Shown: positions 3,966-9,442 of the stretch, one piece after another
Numbering within the stretch: position 1 is the stretch's first letter
Layout of the letters: the number at the start of each line of letters is the position of its first letter
DNA from: Anaerolineae bacterium
Lineage (GTDB): Bacteria; Chloroflexota; Anaerolineae; Aggregatilineales; UBA2796
Direction: 5' to 3'
Assembly: GCA_019637555.1 (NCBI GenBank)
Contig: JAHBVK010000027.1
Span: 1 to 64,000, forward strand
Length of the DNA stretch: 64,000 nucleotides
Notes under the pieces: generated by a model
The model's database searches: none
What the model was told of the DNA's origin: nothing
The model's input: the letters and a program-made list of their open reading frames with translations, nothing else
Position numbers and translations under genes: made by a program

Positions 3966-4984
3966 TATTCGACCTCATGCGTCTCAGTTACAAATTGGGT
4001 CATGCCCTCACGGATTGCAGCGATCAGATTGCCTTGCACCGCCTTCCGTGCCTGCCCGATAGCATTCTTGATCCCTTTGGCGTTGCTGCGTCCATGTCCG
4101 ATGATCACGACGCCATTGACGCCGAGCAGCGGCGCGCCGCCGATCTCGAAGGGATCGGCTTTGTGGTAGATACTGCGCAGCGCCGGGCGCATGAGCAGAG
4201 CGCCCAAGATCGCCAGCGGATTTCTTTTCACCTGTTCTTGCAGCAGTCGGAATAACATCGATCCTACTGCTTCCATCGACTTGATGCAGATGTTACCGAC
4301 GAAACCATCCGCCACCACCACATCGATCTTACCCGCCATCATGTCTTTCGGCTCAACGTTACCAACGAAGTTCAGCGAGGTTTGCCGCAACAGATCACCC
4401 GCCTCTTTGACCAGTGCGTTGCCTTTGGACTCTTCCTCGCCATTGGAAAGCAATGCTACGCTGGGGTTATGTCGTTCCATAACTCGCTGAGCGTACACAT
4501 TCGCCATGATTCCGAACTGCACCAGCCAATCTGCTTTGCAGTCGGTGTTCGCGCCAAGATCGACCAGCGCGACGGTTTCTCCGGCGGTGGGGACGAGTGA
4601 GGTCAGCGCGGGACGCTTGACGCCGGGAATGCGTCGCAGAGAGTGCAGTGTAGCGATTGCCAGCGCCGCTCCCGTGTTGCCCGCTGTGACGAAGGCATCC
4701 GCTTTACCGTCGCGCACCAGATTCATGCCTACTAGCATGGACGAGTCTTTCTTGGTGCGCCCAACGTCGCCGGGGTGATCTTCCATTGTCACATTTTGCG
4801 TGGTATGGACGATCTCGATCTTCAATCCTTGCGTATCATACTTCTTCAGTTCATTCTGGATTCTGGTCTGATCGCCAACCAGCACGATGTCATCAGCCGG
4901 ATAGAGTCTGGCTGCTTGTACCGCGCCTTCGACATCAGGCATAGGGAAGTTGTCACTACCCATCGCATCTACAACAATTCGCAT
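3965..4984 (-). CDS. plsX: Phosphate acyltransferase PlsX
   Basis: Converts acyl-ACP plus phosphate to acyl-phosphate, the acyl donor for PlsY, at the membrane surface at the entry to phospholipid synthesis. The length (339 aa) is typical. Family hallmarks are the N-terminus RIVVDAMGSDNFP, the segment FVTAGNTGAALA near residue 100, and GGAPLLGVNGVVIIGHG near 290-305. First gene of the minus-strand run plsX-TPR-xpt-guaA. It is divergent from phoU with 237 nt between. In many bacteria plsX sits with fab genes; here no fatty-acid gene follows. Confidence 0.95.
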   Translation of the reverse strand: MRIVVDAMGSDNFPMPDVEGAVQAARLYPADDIVLVGDQTRIQNELKKYDTQGLKIEIVHTTQNVTMEDHPGDVGRTKKDSSMLVGMNLVRDGKADAFVTAGNTGAALAIATLHSLRRIPGVKRPALTSLVPTAGETVALVDLGANTDCKADWLVQFGIMANVYAQRVMERHNPSVALLSNGEEESKGNALVKEAGDLLRQTSLNFVGNVEPKDMMAGKIDVVVADGFVGNICIKSMEAVGSMLFRLLQEQVKRNPLAILGALLMRPALRSIYHKADPFEIGGAPLLGVNGVVIIGHGRSNAKGIKNAIGQARKAVQGNLIAAIREGMTQFVTETHEVE

Positions 4985-7058: not shown

Positions 7059-7928
7059 CTACATCGCCGCAATCTCCGGCATCACCTCGTTCACCAGAAT
7101 TTCCAGCGCGGAAATTTCGTGCATGTTCGGCAGCATCAGCATGGCGTGTGTGAAGCCGAGCTTACCGACTTCCTTCAACTGCGCCACGATTTCCTTGCTG
7201 GCTTGTTCACCGGGATGTACCGTTCCCGCCGCCGTCAACGTGATCTCGCTGAAATCGCGTCCTACTTCATCGCAGTGCCGCTTGAGGACGTCCAGCTTTT
7301 CTTGCAGCGCTTGCGTACCCATGCTGAAGAATAAGTTGCAGGCATCGCCGTACTTTGCCACCAAACGCAGAGTCTTTTTCTCGCCGCCACCACCGATCAG
7401 AATCGGGGGATGTGGCTTGCTGATCGGCGCTGGATGGTTGATCGTCTCGGCAAGCTGATAGTGTTTGCCCTGATATGGCTTAGCTTCGCCCGACCACATC
7501 TGATGAATAACTTGAAGTGCCTCCTCTAGCATCTCGAAGCGATCTTTGACTACTGGGAAGGGAATGCCTAGTCCTTTCGCCTCGCGCTCGTTCCACGCCG
7601 CGCCGATGCCCAAGATTGCCCGCCCGCCGGAGAGTACATCCAGCGTAGTCACCTGCTTCGCGAGAATTCCCGGATAGCGGTAGATCACGCCCGTAACCAG
7701 CGCCAACAGTTTGATCCGTTCGGTAACTCCGGCGATATAACCGAGTGTGGTGTATGCTTCCAACATGTTCAGTTCCGGCGGACCGACGATCCCGATCTGG
7801 AAGAAGTGATCCATCACGCTGATGTCATAAAAGCCGTTAGCATCGGCGTACTGCACGATGTCCTTGAGTTGGGTATTGAGCGCCTTGCCGTGCTGCTCGA
7901 ACTCGATGATGTGTAATCCGAGATCCAT
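7059..7928 (-). CDS. LLM-class (probably F420-dependent) oxidoreductase
   Basis: A luciferase-like TIM-barrel flavin/F420 oxidoreductase of 289 residues. Typical features are the N-terminal strand MDLGLHIIEFE, the VMDHFFQ motif near residue 40, KQVTTLDVLSGGRAILGIGA near 90-110, and HPPILIGGGGEKKTLRL near 170-190. The substrate cannot be read from sequence; the cofactor is inferred from the subfamily style. It is tail-to-tail with queG (2 nt apart) and has its own promoter with a dyad in a 19-bp spacer (7971-8001), which suggests induction by a MerR-family activator, often seen with electrophile or aldehyde stress genes. Confidence 0.88.
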   Translation of the reverse strand: MDLGLHIIEFEQHGKALNTQLKDIVQYADANGFYDISVMDHFFQIGIVGPPELNMLEAYTTLGYIAGVTERIKLLALVTGVIYRYPGILAKQVTTLDVLSGGRAILGIGAAWNEREAKGLGIPFPVVKDRFEMLEEALQVIHQMWSGEAKPYQGKHYQLAETINHPAPISKPHPPILIGGGGEKKTLRLVAKYGDACNLFFSMGTQALQEKLDVLKRHCDEVGRDFSEITLTAAGTVHPGEQASKEIVAQLKEVGKLGFTHAMLMLPNMHEISALEILVNEVMPEIAAM

Positions 7929-7970
7929 GCTGTGCTGTCCTCTACCTCTATTGAGCGAGCCAATCTATCC

Positions 7971-8001
7971 ACTGTACAACTTAGAGTGTGCTCTAAGTCA
8001 A
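7971..8001 (-). promoter_or_regulatory. MerR-type promoter/operator (19-bp spacer with dyad)
   Basis: On the minus strand TTGACT (8001-7996) and TACAGT (7976-7971) are separated by 19 nt, and the perfect inverted repeat ACTTAGAGTGTGCTCTAAGT (7979-7998, 8-4-8) overlaps the -35 and fills the spacer. An over-long spacer containing a dyad is the defining architecture of MerR-family activated promoters. The promoter drives the LLM oxidoreductase; its regulator gene is not in the window. Confidence 0.7.
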
Positions 8002-8125: not shown

Positions 8126-9442
8126 ATGCACATCGGAATTATCGGGGCGGGTCCCGCGGGGATGACCGCCGCCTACGATCTCGTCAAAGCTGGACATCAG
8201 GTGACGATCTTTGAGGCAGGAGATCGCGTTGGCGGGTTGGCGGCAGGCTTCAAGGATGAAGGTTGGGACTGGCAACTAGAGAAGTTTTATCATCACTGGT
8301 TCCAATCCGATCATGACATCCTCAACTTGATCGCGGAACTTGGCTTGAGCGATCAGGTATTGTTCCCACGTCCCAAAACCTCAATGTGGTCGCGCGGCAA
8401 GATATTCCCCTTCGATAACGTCCGCGCATGGCTGAGTTTCCCGCATCTGCCGTTGATCCCCAAAGTGCGCTTCGGGTTGACGGGCTTATATATGCGGCTG
8501 ACGCGCAACTGGCAGCAAATGGAGAAGTACACTGCCCAAGAATGGCTGATCCGCTACATGGGTAAAGATGCCTACGAAACGCTGTGGCGTCCAATGCTGA
8601 TCGGCAAGTTCGGGGACTTATACAACCAAGTGACGATGGCGTGGTTCTGGGCACGCATCTACACTCGCACAGTTAATCTCGGTACTTTTGTCGGCGGCTT
8701 CCAGAAGTTTCTGGACACCTTCGCGCAAAAGCTGATCGAAATGGGTGTGACCATTCGCTTCAATGCGCCTGTGCAGAACGTTCGCCGCGAAGGATCGCAG
8801 TTGCAAGCCACTGCCAACGGTGAGACGCTCACCTTCGACGCCGTAATCAGCACTACTTCACCGCTCGCCTTACTCAAAATCGCTCCCGATATTCCCTCTC
8901 CCTACACCGATCAGCTACGCAAACTGCGGAGCATGGGCGCGGTAGTGCTGGTGGTGGCGCTGGATCGGCAGTTCATGACTGATGGCACTTACTGGCTAAA
9001 TCTGCCCGCCAGCAGTCCCGATAAATCCAAGAGCGATTTCCCATTCCTTGCGCTGGTGGAACACACTAATTACATGGATCGGGCGCACTACGGTGGCGAT
9101 CATCTGCTGTACTTAGGCGACTACGTACCCGCTGATCATGAATACTTCAAACTGAGCGAGAACGAACTGGCGGATCGCTTCATCGGCGCACTCGCAAAGG
9201 TTCGTCCTGATTTCAAACGGGAGTGGATTCGCCGCTGGTGGCTATACCGCGCCCCCTACGCGCAGCCGATCCCCGAAGTCAACCACTCACGCAACATCCC
9301 CGATCTGGCAACGCCAATCAAGGGATTGTATCTTGCCAGCATGAGCCAGATTTATCCGTGGGATCGCGGCACCAATTATGCCGTGATGTTAGGGCATCAG
9401 GTGGCGCAGCGCGTGCAGCAGGACGCCAATAAAGCCTCATGA
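8126..9442 (+). CDS. FAD/NAD(P)-dependent amine-oxidase-type oxidoreductase
   Basis: Flavoprotein of 438 residues with the N-terminal dinucleotide fold (GIIGAGPAGMTAAYDL, residues 4-19), the FEAGDRVGG extension near residues 31-39, and the C-terminal FAD segment (YLASMSQIYPWDRGTNYAV near 401-419). It belongs to the protoporphyrinogen oxidase / phytoene desaturase / HpnE superfamily, but the substrate is not determinable. AGGA lies about 10 nt before the ATG. The stop overlaps the start of the following SDR gene (ATGA, 4 nt), so the two are coupled and may act on the same compound. Confidence 0.85.
   Translation: MHIGIIGAGPAGMTAAYDLVKAGHQVTIFEAGDRVGGLAAGFKDEGWDWQLEKFYHHWFQSDHDILNLIAELGLSDQVLFPRPKTSMWSRGKIFPFDNVRAWLSFPHLPLIPKVRFGLTGLYMRLTRNWQQMEKYTAQEWLIRYMGKDAYETLWRPMLIGKFGDLYNQVTMAWFWARIYTRTVNLGTFVGGFQKFLDTFAQKLIEMGVTIRFNAPVQNVRREGSQLQATANGETLTFDAVISTTSPLALLKIAPDIPSPYTDQLRKLRSMGAVVLVVALDRQFMTDGTYWLNLPASSPDKSKSDFPFLALVEHTNYMDRAHYGGDHLLYLGDYVPADHEYFKLSENELADRFIGALAKVRPDFKREWIRRWWLYRAPYAQPIPEVNHSRNIPDLATPIKGLYLASMSQIYPWDRGTNYAVMLGHQVAQRVQQDANKAS

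Follow-up and report, generated by a model that had tools for sequence, protein, structure and literature searches.

A MerR-type promoter ahead of an LLM oxidoreductase gene in an Anaerolineae bacterium, and its probable regulator on another contig

How is a gene for an LLM-class oxidoreductase controlled when the promoter in front of it looks like the target of a MerR-family activator, and no such activator is encoded nearby? The question is raised by a short site in a 64,000-nucleotide stretch of an Anaerolineae genome (the window, by which we mean the whole stretch analysed). We are fairly confident that this site is both promoter and operator of a MerR-family activator encoded elsewhere, 34 kb into contig C26, that it controls the LLM gene together with several reductase genes, and that the inducer is most likely a reactive carbonyl or electrophile. 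The LLM gene would very probably answer, together with other genes, to one detoxification switch, the general type of which is known. The features concerned are these:

7971-8001, minus strand: MerR-type promoter, TTGACTTAGAGCACACTCTAAGTTGTACAGT; the same promoter stands at five further loci of the genome
7996-8001, minus strand: -35 element, TTGACT
7977-7995, minus strand: 19-bp spacer, TAGAGCACACTCTAAGTTG
7971-7976, minus strand: -10 element, TACAGT
7979-7998: putative operator dyad, ACTTAGAGTGTGCTCTAAGT, with 8-bp arms and a 4-bp centre
7963-7964, minus strand: predicted transcription start, 7-8 nt past the -10 element, by analogy with leaderless MerR genes that have the same promoter
7938-7943, minus strand: AGAGGA, Shine-Dalgarno-like, 9 nt upstream of the ATG as read from the sequence
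7059-7928, minus strand: gene for an LLM-class oxidoreductase of 289 aa (Pfam PF00296 Bac_luciferase, 145 bits; TIGR03560, 298.8 bits)

The initial annotation had placed TTGACT and TACAGT 19 nt apart on the minus strand, and this is indeed what positions 7971-8001 contain. A spacer of 19-20 bp is the defining mark of MerR-type promoters (PMC9909328; PMC5045206), and the spacer of this site, at 19 bp, falls within that range. The accompanying claim of a perfect dyad holds for the two 8-bp arms, which are perfect inverted repeats, and is slightly overstated for the 4-bp centre, which is asymmetric rather than palindromic, leaving 16 of 20 positions symmetric. The promoter does precede an LLM oxidoreductase gene, as had been proposed, and lies 42 nt before its ATG at position 7928. 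A divergent gene on the plus strand (8126-9442) looks by eye like a FAD/NAD(P)-binding oxidoreductase; the site faces the LLM gene only.

Could the dyad be a product of chance, and the LLM gene be served by a constitutive or an unrelated promoter? We find this scarcely credible, even considering that the majority of LLM homologues lack the site. At up to three mismatches, the promoter pattern matches the window once and 100 dinucleotide shuffles of it not at all, whilst the dyad pattern alone gives one match against a mean of 0.07 in the control. Moreover, 29 of the 31 bases are common to the LLM site and a MerR gene's own promoter, and the reversed pattern has no match in the genome. On this likeness, the empty shuffles and the empty reversed-pattern control, a chance dyad was rejected.

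The genome itself (6.5 Mb, 94% complete, 5% contaminated) contains eight sites within three mismatches of the 31-bp promoter, whereas the reversed pattern has none. Of the eight, those with 0-1 mismatch are strong; these six lie on contigs C22, C26, C28, C45, C47 and the window's own contig, C37, and a looser pattern recovered all of them together with the weak site on C81. The C26 site (C26:33935+) precedes a MerR gene followed by three aldo/keto reductases, that on C28 precedes another aldo/keto reductase, and that on C45 a short-chain dehydrogenase, whilst those on C47 and C22 stand ahead of small proteins without a confident family. The two weak sites (three mismatches), on C55 and C81, adjoin other MerR genes. 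This distribution bears on the earlier prediction of a stress regulon for electrophiles, oxidants or metals: the aldo/keto reductase and short-chain dehydrogenase targets favour carbonyl or electrophile stress, and metals become the less favoured part of that prediction. Two outcomes that the initial annotation had named as refuting it, the lack of any other gene and of any MerR gene with the site in this genome, did not arise, and as far as sequence can tell its interpretation is largely borne out.

That no MerR gene lies near the site, and that its regulator acts in trans, had been asserted from the window alone. Indeed, no MerR_1 domain was found on contig C37, all 13 matches in the genome being on other contigs, and the MerR gene on C26 carries the same spacer dyad in front of it, its site differing from that of the LLM gene at only 2 of 31 positions. 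Given this likeness, together with the co-occurrence of site and regulator in 154 genomes (see below), regulation in trans is the most likely arrangement. Another MerR paralogue, either the SoxR/MerR-like protein of C55 or that of C81, might instead bind the same promoter and place the LLM gene in a metal or superoxide regulon, a reading for which one could cite the 13 MerR_1 matches and the fact that the C55 and C81 genes each adjoin a related dyad promoter. We think this improbable, since 7 of the 18 dyad positions are unlike those of the LLM site in both cases, against 1 of 18 for the C26 dyad, and since in relatives the dyad class of the LLM site accompanies C26-type MerR genes. Over the full promoter, the C55 and C81 sites differ from the LLM site at 9 and 11 of 31 positions, respectively. 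Control by either protein was rejected on the dyad differences. Each of these MerR genes has a different dyad promoter of its own; by eye, the C55 site (locus L045, about 4850-4890) adjoins a small membrane-like ORF and the C81 site (L043, 5515-5545) a thioredoxin-like gene.

In 154 genomes of the order, the site and MerR proteins like that of C26 largely travel together. The site (up to three mismatches) was found in 59 genomes, with a single match to the reversed control across all 154, and a homologue of the C26 MerR protein in 58 (E 1e-20). Both occur in 54 genomes, the site alone in five, the MerR alone in four and neither in 91 (Fisher p 1.2e-30, uncorrected for phylogeny). From a selection of the site matches, mostly those of 0-2 mismatches, we retrieved 80 surrounding stretches and scored 86 sites in them; the first following gene to match a reference protein was a MerR gene at 45, an aldo/keto reductase at 33, an LLM gene at three and a short-chain dehydrogenase at one, with no such match at four. 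A scan of named genomes yielded 20 loci, among them Chloroflexota relatives that include Anaerolineae MAGs. Twelve are cyanobacterial, and in all 12 the site (up to four mismatches) lies immediately upstream of a MerR gene, followed at several loci by short-chain dehydrogenase or aldo/keto reductase genes. We found no description of this regulon in Chloroflexota in the open-access literature, which does not prove that none exists.

The position of the start codon offers a view of the promoter from its downstream end. It lies 6-7 nt past the -10 element in 33 of the 46 MerR genes linked to a site (32 ATG, one GTG), as does the ATG in 11 of 12 cyanobacterial MerR loci; for non-MerR genes with the site, the first start codon lies at this distance in 1 of 43. 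The merR gene of C26 (L039, 7973-8497) and its relatives in Chloroflexota and Cyanobacteria thus have a leaderless appearance, and the simplest reading would be a leaderless merR mRNA with +1 at the start codon. A +1 at this place, 6-7 nt past the -10, supports the assignment of that element. The objection that transcription of the LLM gene might begin elsewhere is thereby answered indirectly.

Leaderless regulators of this family need not be activators: the cyanobacterial MerR-type CvkR is a repressor made from a leaderless mRNA (PMC9938897). We might ask whether the C26 protein mainly represses these promoters, with the inducer simply relieving repression and no distortion-type activation taking place. 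MerR proteins do repress without inducer (PMC9909328); the same source describes a 19-bp spacer as poor without an activator, and the conserved 19-bp spacing is what one expects of promoters that require distortion. We consider a mainly repressing role of this kind very unlikely, and retain activation of an over-spaced promoter as the preferred reading.

What kind of MerR protein is this? The best NCBIfam match of the C26 protein (P0001) is NmlR (NF041849), at 100.4 bits against a cut-off of 175, which leaves it outside NmlR as there defined. Among its best solved relatives is H. influenzae HI_0186, which we take to be NmlR; the protein aligns with its structure (5e01) and with the related 5d8c and 5d90. 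In this alignment, Lys89 occupies the position of NmlR Cys54, and the sensor cysteine (Cys54/Cys52) is absent. Across 52 site-linked relatives, taken from the stretches fetched around sites and with uncurated ORF starts, the sensor position holds Lys in 36, Arg in eight, Cys in six, and Leu and His in one each, and 28 contain no cysteine at all. In the NmlR clade, according to a review, Cys54 is absolutely conserved and needed for the response to formaldehyde (PMC4776306). The score below the cut-off and the missing sensor cysteine mean that carbonyl sensing cannot simply be transferred from NmlR, although the C26 regulator may work in an NmlR-like manner without being classed as one.

We also considered a pairing of Cys-type MerR proteins with AdhC-type dehydrogenases and of Lys-type proteins with aldo/keto reductases, and rejected it. 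Genes of about 390 aa after Cys-type MerRs encode DUF362 proteins where scanned (L089), as does that after a MerR of the Lys type (L102), and the corresponding genes of L093 and L099 resemble the DUF362 genes by their first residues; after other Cys-type MerRs, aldo/keto reductases come next. The DUF362 genes that follow site-bearing merR genes in some relatives (L089, 3286-4449; L102, 3334-4500) are possible members of the regulon.

Two of the six sites in the genome, those of C22 and C47, count against the preferred reading, as the small proteins behind them do not obviously fit detoxification. By eye, these sites are followed by four small ORFs with good ribosome sites. Pfam gave no above-threshold match for the C47 protein or for all three C22 proteins (the first as a longer frame), and one of the latter has a sub-threshold match to HSP33 (E 0.005). 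Their likeness is only weak, both among themselves and to ORFs that follow MerR genes in relatives, and a four-row profile matched, in the genome, only the three C22 copies, all of them members of the profile. Small proteins of 70-120 aa without a confident family occur after a site or a merR gene at L044 (5751-6660, C22), L040 (10199-10558, C47), L136 (4149-4367), L137, L138, L139, L117 and L124; several end in a Cys or have one close to the C-terminus, and contain a short hydrophobic segment resembling a helix, and their mutual likeness is weak. A distant DNA search of plasmids returned a single, irrelevant match of 218 bases.

Turning to the enzyme, the LLM protein scores above the curated cut-off of the F420-dependent family TIGR03560 (231.4 bits). 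The genome also encodes CofD (310 bits; cut-off 257), so that F420 is probably made, rendering F420 use by the LLM enzyme plausible. Homologues (E 1e-50) occur at 47 places in 41 of the 154 genomes, and nine are preceded by the site at up to four mismatches; the other 38 have at least eight mismatches, with none intermediate, which counts against the preferred reading. The closest homologue (in G039, 68% identical) lacks the site. In a tree of the 47 proteins, the site label needs four changes, and well-supported branches force all four: six site-bearing LLM proteins group together (94/88 support), whilst that of the window pairs with the site-less G039 protein. In G141, of the same genus, the site precedes a different LLM gene and not the copy closer to ours, and in G059 the site (four mismatches) stands ahead of the LLM gene of a genome without a MerR match at E 1e-20. 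The label changes are consistent with repeated recruitment, and LLM genes appear to have joined the regulon more than once, though gains and losses are hard to separate with certainty.

Sequence analysis shows the promoter and its further copies, a regulator gene to match them, the tendency of site and regulator to occur in the same genomes, and the families of the proteins; from these we infer the following course of events. The MerR protein would lie on the over-long spacer (19 bp) in front of its own, presumably leaderless, gene, and likewise on the spacers of the aldo/keto reductase, short-chain dehydrogenase and LLM genes. Once it sensed its inducer, for which a reactive carbonyl or some other electrophile is the likeliest candidate, it would untwist the DNA such that RNA polymerase could use the -35 and -10 elements together; inducer-bound MerR proteins are described as kinking the dyad and realigning over-spaced promoters (PMC9909328). 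The LLM enzyme could then reduce such compounds with F420H2, beside the NAD(P)H-dependent reductases.

Considered in this way, an F420 LLM enzyme is tied to a probable carbonyl or electrophile regulon, and regulator, operator and inducer class all become testable. So does the sensing mechanism, in an NmlR-like group that lacks the cysteine regarded as indispensable for the formaldehyde response. One could go further, and picture a broad NmlR-like clade in Chloroflexota and Cyanobacteria that senses carbonyls without a sensor thiol, Lys or Arg replacing Cys and Lys perhaps trapping aldehydes as a Schiff base, its regulator, made from a leaderless mRNA, having repeatedly recruited unrelated reductases, among them F420-dependent LLM enzymes on several occasions, as well as small proteins that carry a C-terminal Cys. 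This wider picture is speculative, and we regard it as unlikely as a whole.

Where, finally, does the system stand among those already known? With the distortion promoters of CueR, MerR and SoxR it shares an operator dyad inside the 19-bp spacer of a sigma70-like promoter, whereas the C26 regulator has no metal or Fe-S cysteine pattern and only a single Cys near its C-terminus. With NmlR and AdhR, the formaldehyde and carbonyl sensors of H. influenzae and B. subtilis, it has in common a small MerR protein, promoters with 19-20-bp spacers and oxidoreductase targets; it differs in a score below the NmlR cut-off, in the Lys that replaces the sensor Cys, and in the targets themselves, which are aldo/keto reductases, a short-chain dehydrogenase and an LLM enzyme. 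The LLM protein resembles the F420-dependent TIGR03560 oxidoreductases of the Rv1855c type in its score above the curated cut-off and in the presence of CofD in the genome, and its gene differs from theirs in being placed under a MerR operator. The locus is a well-supported instance of a type of regulation already known, set apart by the unusual residue that its regulator has in the place of the sensor Cys and by a target that has been little explored.
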